Shown: positions 3,840 to 10,613 of the stretch, piece after piece
Position numbering within the stretch: position 1 is the first letter of the stretch
How the letters are laid out: every line of letters begins with the position of its first letter
NCBI GenBank assembly: GCA_037379885.1
Contig: JARRJC010000015.1
Location: forward strand, 1-44,552
Direction of reading: 5' to 3'
From: Limibacillus sp.
Lineage (GTDB): Bacteria > Pseudomonadota > Alphaproteobacteria > Kiloniellales > CECT-8803
DNA: 44,552 bases
Made by a program: the position numbers and the translations under genes
The notes under the pieces: model-generated
Databases searched by the model: none
Seen by the model: only the letters and a program-made list of their open reading frames with translations
Told to the model about the DNA's origin: nothing

Positions 3840-4197
3840 TCTTGCTCTCGCCTCCGCGTTCTCGTCATGCCTTCAGGCGAAGTTAGTTTGCCCCAGGGAT
3901 TTGTCACCTCCCAGAGACTTTTCAGAAGGGATGGCGTAAAAAAGGAGTAGCAATAAGGCGTCTGCAAGAAGAACTATGAAAAAGCATCTAAAGTTTAAAC
4001 CATGAAGTATGAACTCATTATATTTTCTTACTGAATATTTCTACTTATTTAATTCTCTTTATCAGGGTTGAACCAACAATCTGTCGAACAATATATTAAG
4101 GCATCCAAGAATTAGAGCCGTTGCAACGTCAAACGGTTGCAGCGCCCGTCCAGGGCGTCCGGCTTTCCGAGCCATAGCAAAGGAGTGCTTCGCCACA
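3840..4197. other. AT-rich gene-free region upstream of the ATP-grasp gene
   Basis: A 358-bp gap, strongly AT-rich between about 3940 and 4105, in sharp contrast to the GC-rich surroundings. It holds a sigma70-like promoter (4068-4097) and, in the last 90 bases, GC-richer leader sequence with small inverted repeats (CCGTT/AACGG around 4113-4131 and CGCCC/GGGCG around 4143-4157). Two tiny overlapping open frames (3976-4005 and 4002-4034, nine and ten codons) are present but look like chance in AT-rich DNA. No RNA gene is recognised. Confidence 0.6.
4068..4097 (+). promoter_or_regulatory. predicted sigma70-like promoter for the ATP-grasp operon
   Basis: TTGAAC at 4068-4073 and TATATT at 4092-4097 are separated by 18 bases, close to the consensus layout. 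Transcription would start near 4104 and leave a leader of about 94 bases before the GTG start. The surrounding AT-rich DNA raises the chance of accidental matches. Confidence 0.5.
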
Positions 4198-5424
4198 GTG
4201 ACTGAAAAGAATCCCGATAAAGGCTTCGTCGCAATCCTTGGATGGAGCCTGAATGCGATTGACGCCATTGACCGCTTCGACCGCCGCTACGTGGTGGTCG
4301 CCCCGAGCTGGGCGGAGGACTATGCCCGCGAGAACGACATTCCGTTCATCGCCTGGGACTTCGACCGTCTGAACGAGCGCAGTCACGAGATCGCACAGAT
4401 CCTGAAGGACGAGGGCTGCGACGTCGCGATCCCGCTCTACGAGGAGACCGTCGAGTGGGCCGGAGCGATCAACGCCGTGCTGCTCGACAACCCGCGCCTG
4501 CTGGGCCAGTCCATGCTGTTCCGCGACAAGTCGCTGATGAAGCGCCGCGCGCAGCTGGCCGGCATCCGCGTCGGCATCTTCGAGGAGGCGGACAACCACG
4601 CCGACGTCATCCGCTTCTTGAAGCGCGTCAACCAGACGCTTCTGAAGCTGGAGGGCGACCCGAACGACCCGATTCACTTCAAGGCCTTCGATAAGGCCGG
4701 CTGTCTCGGCCACCGGACCATCCGCACGGTCGAGGATGTCGACTCGATCTCCGACGACGAGTTCCCCGCGCTTCTGGAGAGTCATCTGGATGGCTGGGAG
4801 TTCGCGGTCGAGTGCTGGATCAAGGACCGCAAGATCCAGTTCCTGAACATCTCCGAATACGTGACGCTCGGCTACTCGGTCTTCGTTCCGGCCACCCCGG
4901 AACTGGAGTCCTGGCGCGACGCCATCACCAAGGAGATCGAGAAGCTGATCGAGGCCTTCGACATCGACTTCGGTTTCATCCACCCCGAGTACTTCGTCAC
5001 CAACGACGGCACCATGTACTTCGGCGAGGTCGCCTATCGTCCGCCGGGCTTCAACGCCCTGGAGCTGATCGAGCGCGCCTATGGCTTCAACGGCTATCAG
5101 GGGCTCGTGCTGGCCTTCGACCCCAAGACCACCCAGGAAGAGCTGGACGCGTTCTTCCCGGAGCCGGTCAAGGACGCCAAGGGCCATGCCGGTTGCTTCG
5201 GCGCCTATCCGCGCCGCCGCGTGGTGAGCTACATGGAGGTCCCCGAAGAGACCGAGAATCACCCCTACTTCGAGTTCCACGAGCTGTCCCAGCCCATGGA
5301 GCAGAAGGTGACCAAGCGAACTGCTTTCGGTACCCACTGGGGTCTGGTCTACTTCTTCGGCGACAATCCTCATAAGCTGAGGGACCTGCTGAAGGCGCAG
5401 GAGGAACTGGACTTCTACGTGTGA
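4198..5424 (+). CDS. ATP-grasp superfamily carboxylate-amine ligase, substrate unknown
   Basis: A 408-residue soluble protein with the order expected of ATP-grasp ligases: an N-terminal Rossmann-like part (AILGWS, ending in CDVAIPLYEETVEWA), a lid/ATP region around K150, and the metal-binding core (HPEYFV with E264, then GEVAYRPPG with E277 and R281). The usual Asn two residues after the second Glu is Ala279 here, a variation also found in some carnosine synthase/BacD-like branches. Such enzymes join a carboxylate to an amine through an acyl phosphate. The GTG start at 4198 has AGGAG at 4181-4185. It is followed 46 bases later by a papain-like protein gene, and the two probably form one operon behind the promoter at 4068. 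The product is not known. Confidence 0.8.
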   Translation: MTEKNPDKGFVAILGWSLNAIDAIDRFDRRYVVVAPSWAEDYARENDIPFIAWDFDRLNERSHEIAQILKDEGCDVAIPLYEETVEWAGAINAVLLDNPRLLGQSMLFRDKSLMKRRAQLAGIRVGIFEEADNHADVIRFLKRVNQTLLKLEGDPNDPIHFKAFDKAGCLGHRTIRTVEDVDSISDDEFPALLESHLDGWEFAVECWIKDRKIQFLNISEYVTLGYSVFVPATPELESWRDAITKEIEKLIEAFDIDFGFIHPEYFVTNDGTMYFGEVAYRPPGFNALELIERAYGFNGYQGLVLAFDPKTTQEELDAFFPEPVKDAKGHAGCFGAYPRRRVVSYMEVPEETENHPYFEFHELSQPMEQKVTKRTAFGTHWGLVYFFGDNPHKLRDLLKAQEELDFYV

Positions 5425-5470
5425 GGCGGCCTGCCTCTCTATCCGAAGTCTCCACCGGGGGTGCCGTTAC

Positions 5471-7462
5471 GTGAGTGATCTAGACCGCCTGAGCGAAACG
5501 CTGGAGGTCGCGCTGTCCCGTTTGGAGTCGGCGCGGCCCTTCGCGAAAGCTCGTTATCAGACCGGCGTTCTCGATGTCTCCTACCGCCTGATGGCGCAGG
5601 AGGGCGGCCTGGAACGGCTTCACGCTCTGGCCCCCCGGCTGGACCAGGCGGGGATCTTCAGCGGTTCCGACTGGGACCAGCCGGAGACCCTGCAACCCCA
5701 GTTCGTCGCTAGCGCGCTGGACGCCCCGCAGCGCACCACGGTCGCGCTGGAGGCGCTCAGCCTCCTGCGCATGCTGGCGCTTGCGGGAGGGGAGCACTAT
5801 CACCCCGGAATCCACGCCGAGCACGCGCGCCACTTCCTGACCCAGGTGCTGGCGCTCAACATCAACCGCTTCTTCGGCCAGGTCGACGAAGCCGGGCGCG
5901 AGGCCGAGGGCGCGCGCCGCACGGTGGAGCGCCTGCTGCGCTATCTGGCCGCGCGGATCGGCTTCAAGGACGTGCTGGGCGCCCTGGTCAATGAAATCTG
6001 GCGCATCCTGGCACAGCGCCCCGTGAACGTGGGGCCGGTCAAGGAGATGATCACCCAGATCGCCGTCACGCTTTCGCGCGAAGGCGGGGAGGCCGGGGAG
6101 GCCCGCATCGGCGCGGACCGGCTGGTCTCCGCGCTGTTCGGCACCACCTCGGGCTGTCTGGACGACCCCGGCATCGCAGTCTACCGCGAACGGCTGTCCG
6201 GTCTGCAGGAGAGCGCCTTGCTGCACGAGGCGCACGGCTTCGCCCGCGCCATGCACGATACCGGCCTGGTCTCCGACTACCACGCGGGGTTCCTGGTCTG
6301 GGCGCTCGACGCCGGTCAGGAAAGCCTGATTCCTGAGGCCTTGGGTCTCGACCGCACCGGTCTCACCTGTTACCGCCGCCATGAAGCCCTGGTTCACGAC
6401 CTGATCCGCGCGGCTGTCGGGCCGGAGACGCCGCAGGCCGTCTATGGCCTTTCCCTGCTGCTGCAGCGGGGCATCCTGCACCATCCCCCCATCGCGCCCT
6501 CGCTGCGCCGTCAGGTGGAGCTGGAGCCGAGCGCCGAGGCGGCCGCGCGCATCGCCAGCGCCTACGGCCCTTCGGTCGAACCGAAGCGGTTCCTGACCGC
6601 CGGGGTGCTTCAGGTGCTGGGCCAGCCGCTCGGCATCGGGCAGGGCGCCAACCCCACCTGCCAGTCGGCCCGCGCCATGACGCTCTGGTCGCTGAACGAT
6701 CCGGACTACCTGCTGGACCTAATCGCCCAGGCCGCGCGTTTCGATCGGATCGAGATGTACTTCGAGGGCCAGCGCCTCAACTCCGCTGCGCTTCCGACGG
6801 GATTGACTCCCTTCGCGCCGCTGGACTCCGATCCGGTCTCCGTCGTTCTGGTGCCGCACCTGGACCGCATCTACGCCGAGATGGGACGCCGCTGCGCGGA
6901 CCGCCCGGAGGACCCGCACGTCTGGGTCAATCCGGAGTTCCACGGCTGGTGGGTCGCGCGGCACTGCTGCGTCGCGGTCGATGTCGCGAGCGGCGCGCTT
7001 CTGGCGATCGAAGACTTCCTGGCGAGCTTCCACAGCGCCTACCACCCACACTACAACGGCGGGGAACCGCTGATCCATCCGCAGCCGGCGGGGGTCGCGG
7101 TGACCGACCCCGGCGGCGAGTTCATCGGCTGGCACGCCATCGCCATCCTGCGCGTCGCACCGGATCAGGACGGCGTGATGAGGGTCTATTTCTATAACCC
7201 GAACAACGATAGCGGACAGGATTGGGGCGGCGGCGTGAAGGTCTCGACGCAGGGGCAGGGCGAAAACTATGGAGAGGCCTCGCTGCCCTTCGACCAGTTC
7301 GCAGCGCGCCTCTATCTGTTCCACGAGGCCCCGGCCAAGCCGCGCGGCGCCAAACGCCCTCCGGCCGAAGAGCTGAGCGCCATCGCCGAGCAGATCCGCA
7401 AGAGCTGGGCCGCCTACCGCGGCGAGCTCCAAGGCAGCCCCATCGCCGCCCAGGCGGAGTAG
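5471..7462 (+). CDS. uncharacterised 663-residue protein with papain-like C-terminal region
   Basis: I do not recognise a named family. The first 350 or so residues look all-helical with no signal peptide or membrane segment. The second half contains a pattern like a papain-fold cysteine hydrolase: Q391 six residues before C397 (QGANPTC, the same Gln-to-Cys spacing as papain Q19/C25), H555 in GWHAIAI, and N576 in YNPNNDSG. The order Gln-Cys-His-Asn and the spacing suggest a peptidase, amidase or transglutaminase-like enzyme, which is inference. Its partner is the ATP-grasp ligase 46 bases upstream, so one enzyme may form and the other cleave or transfer an amide bond. The GTG at 5471 is chosen as the first start after the upstream stop. 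The stop codon lies inside a 14-bp tandem repeat. Confidence 0.75.
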   Translation: MSDLDRLSETLEVALSRLESARPFAKARYQTGVLDVSYRLMAQEGGLERLHALAPRLDQAGIFSGSDWDQPETLQPQFVASALDAPQRTTVALEALSLLRMLALAGGEHYHPGIHAEHARHFLTQVLALNINRFFGQVDEAGREAEGARRTVERLLRYLAARIGFKDVLGALVNEIWRILAQRPVNVGPVKEMITQIAVTLSREGGEAGEARIGADRLVSALFGTTSGCLDDPGIAVYRERLSGLQESALLHEAHGFARAMHDTGLVSDYHAGFLVWALDAGQESLIPEALGLDRTGLTCYRRHEALVHDLIRAAVGPETPQAVYGLSLLLQRGILHHPPIAPSLRRQVELEPSAEAAARIASAYGPSVEPKRFLTAGVLQVLGQPLGIGQGANPTCQSARAMTLWSLNDPDYLLDLIAQAARFDRIEMYFEGQRLNSAALPTGLTPFAPLDSDPVSVVLVPHLDRIYAEMGRRCADRPEDPHVWVNPEFHGWWVARHCCVAVDVASGALLAIEDFLASFHSAYHPHYNGGEPLIHPQPAGVAVTDPGGEFIGWHAIAILRVAPDQDGVMRVYFYNPNNDSGQDWGGGVKVSTQGQGENYGEASLPFDQFAARLYLFHEAPAKPRGAKRPPAEELSAIAEQIRKSWAAYRGELQGSPIAAQAE

Positions 7463-7479
7463 GCAAGGCGGAGTAGGCA
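7452..7479 (+). repeat. 14-bp perfect tandem repeat over a stop codon
   Basis: Two adjacent perfect copies of AGGCGGAGTAGGCA (7452-7465 and 7466-7479). The first contains the TAG stop of the 663-residue protein. This is probably a replication-slippage duplication. Confidence 0.9.
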
Positions 7480-7540
7480 GGCAGGGCCAGCCACCTGGTG
7501 GCGGCCTTGGACGGGTCTATGGATTTTCCGAAAAAGAAAG

Positions 7541-7616
7541 TGGTGCCGCCAGGGTGACTCGAACACCCGACCTACGCATTACGAATGCGCCGCTCTACCA
7601 GCTGAGCTATGGCGGC
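7541..7616 (-). tRNA. tRNA-Thr (anticodon CGU)
   Basis: Read on the minus strand, this folds as a complete 76-base cloverleaf. The acceptor stem GCCGCCA pairs with TGGCGGC, the D stem is GCTC/GAGC, the anticodon stem GCGCA/TGCGT has loop TTCGTAA giving anticodon CGT, and the T arm GGGTG/CACCC has loop TTCGAGT. The 3' CCA is encoded in the DNA. It reads ACG (Thr). No integrase or att-like duplication is seen beside it. Confidence 0.96.
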
Positions 7617-7810
7617 TTCTCCACCTTCCGGGGCGCCGAAACGCGGTTCCCGGGAACGGAGCCCATCGCCCGCGCGGATAGCGCGGCGGCGAGCGGGCTT
7701 TATCTAATGCAGGCGCGAGTCCGGGTCAATCCTTGATCGGGCTCGGCCTGCGGTGCCAGGACGTGACCAGGCCGGACGCGACCAGGCCGGAGGTGTCCAG
7801 TAGTACGTGA
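7617..7810. other. intergenic region between tRNA-Thr and hemY
   Basis: Upstream of the minus-strand tRNA, so its promoter should lie here; a weak candidate is not clear enough to mark. The right part is a set of 15-bp direct repeats that runs into the end of hemY. No gene is supported. Confidence 0.5.
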
Positions 7811-7820
7811 TCAGGCCGGG
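7762..7820. repeat. 15-bp direct repeats at the hemY 3' end
   Basis: CGTGACCAGGCCGGA at 7762-7776, CGCGACCAGGCCGGA at 7777-7791, a degenerate 14-base copy at 7792-7805, and CGTGATCAGGCCGGG at 7806-7820. The last copy contains the hemY stop (minus strand TGA), where the other copies read TGG in the same place. Confidence 0.8.
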
Positions 7821-9226
7821 CGGGGTGCTGCGCCCCCAGGCGCTGGATCCTTGGGCGCTGACTCCTCGCCCGCCTCCGTGGGCGGGGCGACTTCGCGGAC
7901 CTCGACCTCCGGCATCTCCGGGAGCAGGCCGCTGGTCATCTCCGGCGGGGAGCGCCAGTCAAGGCTGTCGATCTCGCCGCAGGCGCGGCAGGCCGCCGAC
8001 CAGTCGATCGCCGAGGTGCCGCATTCCGCGCAGACCCAGGCCGGGTCGTTGGGCGCGGCGGCGGCGCGGCGGAACCAGTCGTGGGCCCGGGCGGAATCGC
8101 CGTTCTCGGCCTCCTCCAGCTCCGCCATCAGACGGCAGACCGCTTCGCTCGGCTGCGCGCCGCCCGCCAGTTGCAGGTGTCGGCGCGCCTCGCCCCAGAG
8201 CTGCGCGTCCAAGGCGGCGCGGGCCTGCGCCAGATGGCTTTCGGGGTGGCTGACCCGCATGTGCACCAGCTTGGTCAGGCGCTTGACCCGCTCCAGCGGT
8301 TTCTCGTTCGGCTCCATGTCCAGGAAGGGCTTGACCAGGGCCGGATGCGGCGCCTTCTCCCAGGTCTTCTGTAGAAGCTTCAGCGCCTTGCGCTTGTCGC
8401 CGCTCTCAACGTGCAGCCGTGCGAGCAGGGCCGCCGCGGGGATCAGATCGGGAACCAGCTTGACCGCCTCGGCCAGGGCGCGCTTTGCGTCCTCGCGCCG
8501 GTTCTCCTCGACCAGCCCGCGGGCCTTTTCAGTCAGGAGCACGGCGCGGCGGCGCTGCCAGTCCGGCTTGCGCACCGCATTGTTCGCCTTGGCGAGGGCG
8601 AGCGCCTGTTCCGCCGCCTCGATGCGCCCGTGGCGGAGCTCCAGCTTGAACAGCATCTCGGAGACCCAAGGCGTATTCGGCTGCAACTCCTTGGCGCGGC
8701 GGGCGTAGTCCAGCGCCGCCGCCTCGTCGCCCGCCTTCATGGCCTGATTGAACAACCCACGCAGGCCGAGAAAGGCCGTTTCCTCGCGGTCCAGCATGGC
8801 CGTGAAGTAGCGCTTGGCGGCGTTCTCGTCGCCGTTCAGCTGCGCCGCCTGCGCCGAGAGCAGAAGGGTCAGCGGCGGCTCGTCCAGAAGGCGGTTGGCC
8901 TGCTGGGCCAGACGCCGGGCCTCGTCGGGCGCGCCGGCGGCGACCGCCACCATCCCTTGCGTCAGCGCCTTGTAGCCGCGCACGCGCTTGTTGTCGGCCA
9001 TGTTGCGTTTGATCGACCCGGGCGCGCGCCGCGTCGCGATCCAGAAGCGGTAGATGCCGGCGGCCACGATCATCAGCAAGAAGATCGCCAGCAGCAGGAT
9101 TCCGACCGTGGTGTCGATGCGGTAGCCGAGCCAATCGATGGAAACGTCGCCGGGCCGCTCCGCCAGCCAGATGGCGACGGCGATGAGGACCGCGAGCTTT
9201 ACGAAGAACCAGAGTGAGCGTCCCAT
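7811..9226 (-). CDS. hemY: HemY-like inner-membrane TPR protein
   Basis: A 471-residue protein with two N-terminal membrane segments (about residues 5-22 and 41-62) of the HemY_N type, followed by an alpha-helical tetratricopeptide-rich region. The role in tetrapyrrole metabolism is inferred from linkage; this HemY is not the protoporphyrinogen oxidase of Gram-positives. Near the C-terminus a four-cysteine cluster (CAEC ... CRAC) looks like a small zinc ribbon, a common C-terminal part in alphaproteobacterial HemY proteins. It is last in the minus-strand order hemC-hemD-mic60-hemY, 16 bases after mic60, so translation is probably coupled. The stop codon lies in 15-bp direct repeats, which suggests the tail has changed length recently. 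Confidence 0.9.
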   Translation of the reverse strand: MGRSLWFFVKLAVLIAVAIWLAERPGDVSIDWLGYRIDTTVGILLLAIFLLMIVAAGIYRFWIATRRAPGSIKRNMADNKRVRGYKALTQGMVAVAAGAPDEARRLAQQANRLLDEPPLTLLLSAQAAQLNGDENAAKRYFTAMLDREETAFLGLRGLFNQAMKAGDEAAALDYARRAKELQPNTPWVSEMLFKLELRHGRIEAAEQALALAKANNAVRKPDWQRRRAVLLTEKARGLVEENRREDAKRALAEAVKLVPDLIPAAALLARLHVESGDKRKALKLLQKTWEKAPHPALVKPFLDMEPNEKPLERVKRLTKLVHMRVSHPESHLAQARAALDAQLWGEARRHLQLAGGAQPSEAVCRLMAELEEAENGDSARAHDWFRRAAAAPNDPAWVCAECGTSAIDWSAACRACGEIDSLDWRSPPEMTSGLLPEMPEVEVREVAPPTEAGEESAPKDPAPGGAAPRPA

Positions 9227-9242
9227 GACCTGCGCCGCCCCC

Positions 9243-10613
9243 TTAGTTCGCGGCCTGGAGCGCGGAGAGGAAGGCGCGCGTCGCCTCCTCCACGGCTTGC
9301 TCGGCCTCGTAGCGGCGGCGGGCTTCGGTCAGCCAGGGCTCCGCGGCGGCGGCGGCGCTTTCCGGCAGGCCGGAGAGCGCGTCCAGAGCGTCGCCGAGAT
9401 TGCCGGCGGCCAAAGCGTCCTCGGCCAGACCCACGGCCAGCTCAGGCGAGCCCTCGGCCGCGTTCTCGGTCGAGGGGCGCACGGTCACCACCTGGGAGAG
9501 ACGGCGCTTGATCCCGGCCAAGAGAGCGTTCTCCTCGCCCTCTCCGGCGGCGGCCGCGACGATATCGCGGGAGGCGGCGCGGAAGGACTCCTGAAGGCGC
9601 ACCAGGCGCAGCACGCCGGTGTCGGCGGACTCGCCGAGCGGCTGCAACGCGGCCTCGACGTCGGGCCGGGGCCGGGCGGCCAGCAGCGCCGCCTCCAGCG
9701 TCTCCGCGAAGGGCTGTCCGGTGAAGATCTGCTCGCGCAGGCTGCCGAGCGAGAGAGTCAGGGCGAGGTCCGAGGTCGAAACCGGGCGCACGACCTGATG
9801 GCTCTCCACCCGGTCGAGCCGTGCGATGATCTGATCCAGGCTTTCGCCCCGTTCGGCAAGCTGCCGGTCGATCTCGGCCTGGAGCGCTGCGATCGCGCTC
9901 TCGCTCACGGCTCCGGACCCGAGCGACAGCGCCTGATCGGCCTTCTCGCCAATGGCCGTGATCCGCTGGGACAGGGCACCGATCTGCTCGCTGGCGTTCG
10001 GTCGGCTCTCCAGGCTGGCGACGCGCCTTTGCAGCGCCTCCACCTCTGCGCTGGCTACGGCGTCATCCTCATCGACCAGAGGCAGCCAGATCTCGCGGGC
10101 CACCACGGCGATGCCGATACCGACCAGAAGCACCAAGGCGCCTAGCGCCATGGGGATGCCCCAGGAATCGCTGCCCTGCCGGGCCGGCGTGCTCGCTTGA
10201 GGCGCGGCCGTTTGAGAGGAGGACTTGGGAATCGCGCTCGAAGCCTTGGCTTGCGGCGCGGCGGCGGCTTCCTTGTCTTTCGGGTCGCCAGCTTTGGCGT
10301 CACTGGCTTTGGAACCTGCCGAGTCTTCCGTGGGGTCGTCGGGCATCTGCGCGCTGGAGGCGACGGTCCCGGCGTCGAGGTTCAGCTTGTCGGCCTTGGC
10401 GAGTTCGAGAATCCTCTCGTGGCGGGCGGGCGGGATCACGCCCCGCTCTTTCCAGCCCTGGACGGTCGAGGCGGCGACGCCCAGCTTCTGCGCCATGGGG
10501 CGGATGCCGCCAAAGGCTTCGATCACCTTGTGCGCCGCGGGCACCGTGGCCTCGTCCTGCGCCTTCTTGTCCGCCTTGGCGCCCGTGCTGGTCGAATTCG
10601 GCTCGTCACTCAT
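9243..10613 (-). CDS. Mic60/mitofilin-like inner membrane protein with N-terminal HTH-like domain
   Basis: A 456-residue bacterial mitofilin homologue (COG4223). One membrane helix lies at about 153-172, followed by a coiled-coil stretch and a C-terminal mitofilin domain with the RLSQVVTVRP signature. In alphaproteobacteria Mic60 bends the inner membrane and sits between hemD and hemY, exactly as here. The odd part is residues about 27-75 (KVIEAFGG ... AASTVQGWKERG ... ARHERI), which look like a Cro/carph-isopro-type helix-turn-helix ahead of an Ala/Lys/Ser-rich linker. In a single-pass protein with an inside N-terminus this domain would be cytoplasmic. The ATG at 10613 is accepted because it includes this whole domain. 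Confidence 0.85.
   Translation of the reverse strand: MSDEPNSTSTGAKADKKAQDEATVPAAHKVIEAFGGIRPMAQKLGVAASTVQGWKERGVIPPARHERILELAKADKLNLDAGTVASSAQMPDDPTEDSAGSKASDAKAGDPKDKEAAAAPQAKASSAIPKSSSQTAAPQASTPARQGSDSWGIPMALGALVLLVGIGIAVVAREIWLPLVDEDDAVASAEVEALQRRVASLESRPNASEQIGALSQRITAIGEKADQALSLGSGAVSESAIAALQAEIDRQLAERGESLDQIIARLDRVESHQVVRPVSTSDLALTLSLGSLREQIFTGQPFAETLEAALLAARPRPDVEAALQPLGESADTGVLRLVRLQESFRAASRDIVAAAAGEGEENALLAGIKRRLSQVVTVRPSTENAAEGSPELAVGLAEDALAAGNLGDALDALSGLPESAAAAAEPWLTEARRRYEAEQAVEEATRAFLSALQAAN

Follow-up and report, generated by a model that had tools for sequence, protein, structure and literature searches.

An ATP-grasp ligase and a papain-like partner from Limibacillus sp. as the probable core of an amide- or peptide-remodelling pathway

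A stretch of 44,552 nucleotides from Limibacillus sp. (assembly GCA_037379885.1, contig JARRJC010000015.1), here called the window, carries on its plus strand an ATP-grasp amide ligase of 408 residues that resembles L-amino acid ligases (4198..5424; open reading frame (ORF), profile search and predicted structure), followed by a partner protein of 663 residues predicted to consist of a helical N-terminal part and a papain-like C-terminal part (5471..7462; ORF and predicted model). The two genes belong together, and their joint function, proposed by an original prediction made from the letters of the window, is supported by co-occurrence among genomes, by a presence/absence contrast within one genus and by linkage. 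With some reserve, we regard the pair as the probable centre of an undescribed pathway, spread by horizontal transfer, in which a small amide or peptide is made and remodelled and which includes accessory enzymes in most carriers. If this is true, the pair represents a pathway of amide metabolism that has escaped annotation, includes a partner family unmatched in Pfam and NCBIfam, occurs in isolates of two phyla or more and stays together as a unit through rearrangement. A literature search by titles, terms and abstract openings found no paper describing the pair, a prior mention being possible, and the accessible part of a classification of papain-like proteins makes no mention of it (PMC10318531). 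Newly observed here is that a histone deacetylase (HDAC)-family amidohydrolase and a PF15887 peptidase track the pair, sometimes with an adjoining GNAT acetyltransferase.

Co-occurrence and linkage of the two genes

Among 98 related genomes, the window's own included, the ligase and the partner are found in the same three. In the wider phylum, 11/398 genomes have the ligase and the identical 11 have the partner (hypergeometric 1e-21); two extra matches of the ligase search, G356 and G398 (E about 1e-6), represent different ATP-grasp proteins and come without the partner. A scan of GTDB species genomes yielded 83 partner relatives, from which 80 loci were kept. Linkage across genomes had been set beforehand as a check on the original prediction, and the genes proved to be usually linked: in 72/80 loci no more than 445 bp (median 84) separate the partner from ligase sequence, a count that takes in one remnant (L086), copies truncated where the contig ends (L024, L054) and copies recovered by tblastn in pieces (L026, L030). 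The ligase precedes the partner in 57 of the linked loci, the order is reversed in 1, and the genes are divergent in 9 and convergent in 5; adjacency conserved through four arrangements is more than shared transcription. Eight loci lack an adjoining ligase, two of them (L060, L084) ending close to the partner, and when the genomes of these eight and of L054 and L086 were searched, a ligase sequence was present in 10/10 (split in G103 and divided between two contigs in G107). The distance matrices of ligase and partner are correlated (r 0.51 over 45 loci versus at most 0.16 in 2000 permutations), which a shared transfer history alone could account for; sequence change in the ligase proceeds at half the partner's rate (mean distance 0.22 versus 0.44).

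A genus labelled g180, probably Marinobacter, has a partner match in 103/120 genomes. Forty of its genomes were tested for the ligase, which is present in 22/22 partner-positive genomes (hand-picked) versus 0/17 partner-negative ones (14 of them at least 99% complete); the fortieth, G577, has a weak partner remnant and no ligase. Clean comparisons are possible because, within a single genus, some relatives possess the core and others lack it entirely.

Further copies of the genes occur in varied surroundings. Some g180 genomes (G566, G172, G276) contain several divergent partner copies in unrelated contexts, with fatty-acid desaturase, PDH-like and TRAP-like genes, and G566 has 7 partner matches, some of which are perhaps pieces. 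Two g180 genomes encode an S41/Tricorn-like peptidase, one close to an orphan ligase and the other close to the pair (L151:10710-12077, L152:2857-4203). The partner of Salinivibrio is followed by Amidoligase_2 and Peptidase_C26 genes, which make up another ligase-hydrolase pair (L074:11983-13766, L082:12086-13767). In Hoyosella (L017, L018), DUF2520-, panC- and panD-like genes flank the pair on one side and a folK-like gene on the other, all recognised by eye, and relatives of this pair in L021 and L027 adjoin a helicase-like gene. Fragmentary or frameshifted parts of the system were seen in G577, in G550 and G587, and in L074, L082, G103 and G104, the Salinivibrio copies being split.

Catalytic features of the ligase and the partner

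The proposal of an ATP-grasp ligase holds, supported by profile matches to the PDB and by structural matches. Pfam ATP-grasp_4 reaches 18.2 bits on this protein, below its cut-off of 27, and no NCBIfam family matches it above cut-off. A profile of 45 ligase relatives matches 4dim (E 5e-5), 3vot (E 0.0013) and 4wd3 (E 0.004) in the PDB. The five best structural matches of the predicted ligase (predicted local distance difference test, pLDDT, 85.9) are L-amino acid ligases, with Z 29.1 for 3vot (BL00235), 27.8 for 4wd3 (RizA) and 27.6-27.1 for YwfE/BacD (3wnz); 4dim, titled phosphoribosylglycinamide synthetase, is level with the lowest of them at Z 27.1, and PurK-type ligases score Z 24.1 and below. 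The predicted fold is thus shared with L-amino acid ligases at Z 27 to 29, whereas identity over the structural alignment is only 14-17%. Nine residues, K150, K162, E194, E201, H262, E264, E277, R281 and G284, are identical in 98/98 distinct ATP-grasp ORFs of 380 or more residues, and we take them to include the Lys, the Glu/Glu metal ligands and the Arg of the ATP-grasp core. The core motif HPEYFV...GEVAYRPPG, with E264, E277 and R281 (4987..5040, plus strand), aligns with the GEIAMRIGG segment of 4wd3. On the strength of the predicted fold and these residues, the protein is probably best read as a free amino-acid or peptide ligase of the L-amino acid ligase (Lal) branch. We know of no papain-like partner of the known L-amino acid ligases.

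The window's partner protein has no Pfam match (limit E 10, with filters that drop most matches above 0.1) and no NCBIfam match, and 71 partner relatives gave scattered chance-level Pfam matches only. A model built from these 71 sequences (pLDDT 87.9) is nearly all helical up to about residue 420. In the model C397 opens helix 397-409, H555 lies within strand 551-564 and N576 comes directly after strand 570-575. The position of these three residues in a predicted structure was the other check set beforehand; it did not go against the prediction, the secondary structure of the model placing them on papain-like elements in the papain arrangement. The best non-helical structural matches, to calpain protease cores, have Z 7.8-6.4 and cover residues 359-621 (6545..7333, plus strand) with ~200 residues aligned, and BDI_2249 and staphopain follow at Z about 5. 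Q391, C397, H555 and N576 are identical in 129/129 distinct partner ORFs of 600 or more residues, and so are W485, N487, D580 and Q583. By invariance and predicted secondary structure, Q391 and C397 (6641..6661, plus strand) would be the probable oxyanion Gln and nucleophile Cys, and H555 and N576 (7133..7198, plus strand) would complete the proposed triad. With the papain-like (clan CA) cysteine peptidases calpain, staphopain and papain the protein shares the Q-C-H-N order, the Q-x5-C spacing and the Cys at a helix start; it differs from them in its weak structural matches, in having no sequence match and in the approximately 390 helical residues at its front. The partner is likely to be a papain-like enzyme, as originally proposed for its C-terminal part, with a fold assignment that is weak by score. 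H262-P263-E264, G276-E277 and R281 of the ligase and the four residues of the partner are located where they had first been read, and their invariance shows that this is not by chance.

Accessory enzymes

Recurrent accessory genes surfaced from the neighbours of partner paralogues and of an HDAC-family gene, which was itself found by tracing neighbours. This gene adjoins the partner in 5/9 Alcanivorax/Alloalcanivorax loci and in a Pseudomonadales metagenome-assembled genome (MAG; L054); in G532 its neighbour is the ligase, and in G560 it is separated from the partner by 0.6 kb. Its orthologues, defined by 65% identity or more to the query, occur in 17/22 partner-positive versus 0/17 partner-negative g180 genomes (Fisher 5e-7), the latter holding only other HDAC homologues of about 40% identity or less. 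Outside g180 the association rests on few carriers, 11/19 of which have the orthologue; G577 retains a fragment. Among the 398 genomes of the phylum (limit E 1e-80, 5 best candidates per genome scored), the orthologue is present in 9, all belonging to the 11 pair carriers and the window's own genome being one of them (hypergeometric 9e-17). The window's own genome has one copy (G000:C46:426-1508), which is 70% identical and carries Hist_deacetyl at 315 bits; its best PDB matches are HDAC6 and bacterial histone deacetylase-like amidohydrolase (HDAH), and the Hist_deacetyl domain was confirmed in two further homologues. Like the class II HDAH-type enzymes (1zz0), the accessory enzyme is a clear Hist_deacetyl member; unlike them, it belongs to a separate orthologue group that, among the 398 genomes, is confined to carriers of the pair. 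A homologue near the Thiomicrorhabdus pair (L015) was first taken as support and then excluded from the orthologue counts, being only 47% identical. The HDAC gene of the window's genome (L198:426-1511, minus strand) adjoins an MFS transporter gene, with a Na+/H+ exchanger-family gene further on.

The second accessory enzyme is a zinc peptidase of PF15887 (Peptidase_Mx), which scores 268 bits for the L217 protein, with HEIAH (HExxH) at residue 164. In Hydrogenovibrio and Salinivibrio the ligase has the gene of this peptidase as its neighbour. The distance from the peptidase gene to the HDAC gene is 245 bp in g180 (L208) and 2.3 kb in Porticoccus (L217). Counted at 74% identity or more in 59 genomes, the peptidase orthologue is present in 13/22 g180 carriers (two broken) and 0/17 non-carriers (one has a 41% homologue), and in 11/19 other carriers (one split), giving 24/41 carriers versus 0/17 non-carriers. 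Either the HDAC or the PF15887 orthologue is found in 34/41 carriers. A GNAT acetyltransferase gene immediately adjoins HDAC genes of one clade in three lineages and occurs in 8/59 genomes, all carriers. The accessory amidohydrolase and zinc peptidase are more in keeping with a pathway than with an isolated pair. Through the HDAC-family enzyme, which is mostly unlinked, a two-gene curiosity becomes a testable multi-enzyme system and, if the reading is true, one group of bacterial HDAC homologues gains a possible physiological context.

In one g180 locus (L208, about 5391-9677), genes for the PF15887 peptidase, the HDAC homologue and a KefB-like antiporter stand in a row on one strand.

Putative reaction scheme

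From the families, catalytic residues, linkage, co-occurrence and accessory genes found by computation, we infer a joint pathway with a small-molecule product and the following order of steps. First, judging from its fold and residues, the ligase would use ATP to activate a carboxylate as an acyl phosphate and would couple an amine to it, probably an amino acid or short peptide. Second, the partner would form an acyl-enzyme on C397 with the aid of H555 and N576 and would then hydrolyse or transfer such an amide bond; its helical part may bind the substrate or the ligase. Third, in most carriers the HDAC homologue and/or the PF15887 peptidase would act as zinc-dependent amide hydrolases, presumably splitting off acyl caps or opening peptide bonds in this molecule or a related one, and the GNAT enzyme, where present, would add an acyl cap. 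The compatible solutes N-carbamoyl-glutamine amide and N-acetylglutaminylglutamine amide were considered as products and set aside; in the accessible parts of the sources nothing links either solute to the pair (PMC7824335, PMC1224877), and no product is named here because of this. In its accessible part, a 2005 review describes the enzymes behind both the neutral dipeptide and the derivatised amino acid as still unexplored (PMC7824335/PMC1224877).

Several observations weigh against this pathway. All structural matches of the partner have Z below 8, which may mean only a common arrangement, and Foldseek alone gives no partner match at E <= 0.001. In some g180 genomes there are more copies of the partner than of the ligase (G172, 5 and a fragment versus 2; G276, 4 versus 2), so that certain partners may act with no ligase dedicated to them. 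The g180 contrasts come from genomes of one genus, which are not independent events. Neither accessory orthologue is present in 7/41 carriers, so the HDAC and PF15887 enzymes are not obligatory, and the PF15887 orthologue is absent from the window's own genome. No other specific gene recurs beside the pair among the families clustered or queried; a conserved operon neighbour besides the ligase was sought in the clustering of the 80 loci and in the parts inspected by eye, and no specific one was found.

Alternative explanations

In a protein-modification system, the ligase would couple an amino acid or peptide to a protein, and the papain-like, HDAC-like and zinc enzymes would take this group off again or shorten it; such a system is conceivable and on balance unlikely. 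Several distinct amide hydrolases accompany a single ligase, as would be expected of such a system, and protein lysines are frequent targets of HDAC-family and GNAT enzymes. The ligase itself, however, resembles free amino-acid ligases, and no tag protein or conserved target recurs beside the pair in the families clustered. A parallel for this reading is the Anbu operon, composed of ATP-grasp, alpha-E, transglutaminase-like and Anbu peptidase genes, the function of which is also open; in the accessible text, peptide-tagging or peptide-synthesis roles have been proposed for it (PMC5666114, PMC6376114), though the peptide-synthesis role was later called less likely (PMC5666114/PMC6376114). The two systems share the logic of an ATP-grasp ligase, a helical protein, a transglutaminase-like enzyme and a peptidase that travel together, as far as the accessible descriptions of the operon go. 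They differ in that the helical and papain-like parts of the pair would reside in one polypeptide and in that HDAC-family and PF15887 enzymes take the place of Anbu. Profiles for the Anbu-operon ATP-grasp, alpha-E, transglutaminase and Anbu proteins match neither the window pair nor the 71 partner relatives, the rest of the genome not having been searched.

Alternatively, the partner could be a glutaminase or amidase dedicated to supplying the ligase with ammonia or an amine, the pair being a two-subunit amidotransferase. A Cys-His-Asn enzyme adjoining an ATP-grasp ligase in strict co-occurrence would suit this arrangement, and glutamine side chains are hydrolysed by some papain-fold enzymes. 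Partner paralogues that have no adjoining ligase and the divergent and convergent arrangements do not point to a fixed 1:1 complex, and no glutamine-amidotransferase family was matched by the window proteins or by the 71 partner relatives, so that we consider this reading quite improbable.

Polyamine conjugation would require the ligase to join an acid to a polyamine, the partner to remove the acid and the HDAC homologue to deacetylate polyamines. A polyamine conjugate had been among the original guesses, and this route first looked strong. In g180, a partner paralogue without ligase is located downstream of a PotFGHI-like operon (L146, L147, L157-L159; 7 bp after it in L147), and PotF- and PotG-like scores were obtained for this block, the same in all five loci; agmatine-deiminase-like and N-carbamoylputrescine-amidase-like (aguA/aguB-like) genes, below curated cut-offs, lie beside the Parahaliea pair. 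The case weakened when the Pot context proved to be one syntenic block in one genus, and beyond it the guess rests on this single aguA/aguB-like neighbour pair; the queried polyamine genes were not found beside the pair in any other genus. GCS2-like and AstE-like genes beside some partner paralogues are likewise restricted to a single genus. Moreover, the HDAC homologue scores higher to HDAH (206 bits) and HDAC6 (198 bits, single domain) than to HDAC10 (158) or the acetylpolyamine aminohydrolase 3men (121). The original prediction had also likened the pair to glutathionylspermidine synthetase/amidase (Gss) split into two proteins. An ATP-grasp amide ligase combined with a Cys-dependent amidase is indeed the logic of Gss, and the analogy ends there: the window enzymes are separate ORFs, also divergent or convergent in relatives, the ligase is of an unlike branch, and neither a GSP_synth nor a CHAP profile matches the two window proteins, CHAP being absent from the 71 partner relatives as well. 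Since no matching profiles were found in the pair, it is a member of neither Gss nor the Anbu operon. Polyamine conjugation is accordingly very doubtful.

Finally, a partner acting as protease or maturase on the ligase itself, and not on its product, would account for the strict co-occurrence and matching divergence of the two proteins and would agree with protein-cleaving calpains as the nearest structural matches, but it is highly improbable in view of the surplus of partner over ligase copies in G172 and G276 and of an accessory amidohydrolase and peptidase that fit a metabolite better.

Hosts and a possible relation to salt stress

Isolates carrying the pair belong to Pseudomonadota and Actinomycetota. 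Named carriers include Halomonas, Salinicola, Marinobacter, Alloalcanivorax, Hoyosella, Salinivibrio, Halorhodospira, Thalassospira and Mycolicibacter, which we take to be mostly marine or saline organisms, Mycolicibacter being an exception. Records named Campylobacterota, Desulfobacteraceae and Planctomycetaceae are MAGs and a Phormidium contig clusters with a genome from the order to which the window belongs, for which reasons these four may be misassigned. The ligase tree requires two origins of the actinomycete label, which is compatible with horizontal transfer and is not proof of it. Carriage by phages or plasmids was considered and rejected: no phage record matched, and tblastn gave no viral contig (60 pattern matches, none a relative). 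One large Halomonas record is typed as plasmid, and that stretch carries no annotation.

Genes for cation/proton antiporters, identified as PF00999 in the four tested, make up 11/573 ORFs in loci of the accessory genes (own genome included) versus 4/1855 in other loci; the majority of these neighbours belong to a single genus, and four of the eleven had themselves served to build the search profile. Antiporter-family genes are found near accessory genes in three lineages, the window's own included. From host names and antiporter neighbours one might guess at a role of the pathway in salt, ion or pH stress. Glutathione adducts gate KefB/KefC. By analogy, it is imaginable, and in our estimation unlikely, that the ligase, a papain-like transferase, an HDAC-like deacylase and the PF15887 peptidase form a small-molecule system of salt-adapted bacteria, making and turning over an acylated peptide or amine that would accumulate as a solute or gate Kef-type cation/proton antiporters.

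Surroundings of the pair in the window

Both genes of the window have GTG starts on the same strand, and 46 bases separate the stop at 5424 from the start at 5471, in agreement with the first description of the two ORFs. An AAAGGAG about 10 bases before the GTG of the ligase is a likely ribosome-binding site, as read from the sequence. The claim that both genes stand behind one promoter fared less clearly. In a scan of 3840-7640, the sole sigma-70-like match (4068..4097, plus strand, 9/12 bases; 0.4 expected in shuffles) falls in the AT-rich spacer 5′ of the pair and none falls between the two genes; as a consensus match it makes a promoter plausible and does not prove one. The same scan gave one terminator-like site 3′ of the partner (7503-7517), against 2.3 expected. 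The pair is situated in a chromosomal housekeeping region, flanked by the AT-rich spacer and a tRNA-Thr gene. ORFs recognised by eye as hemC, hemD, tsaD and gpsA lie on one side, and lactate/malate dehydrogenase-like and flavin-dependent reductase-like ORFs on the other. This tRNA-Thr (CGT) gene, encoded on the minus strand (7541-7616), follows immediately after the pair and is a possible insertion site.

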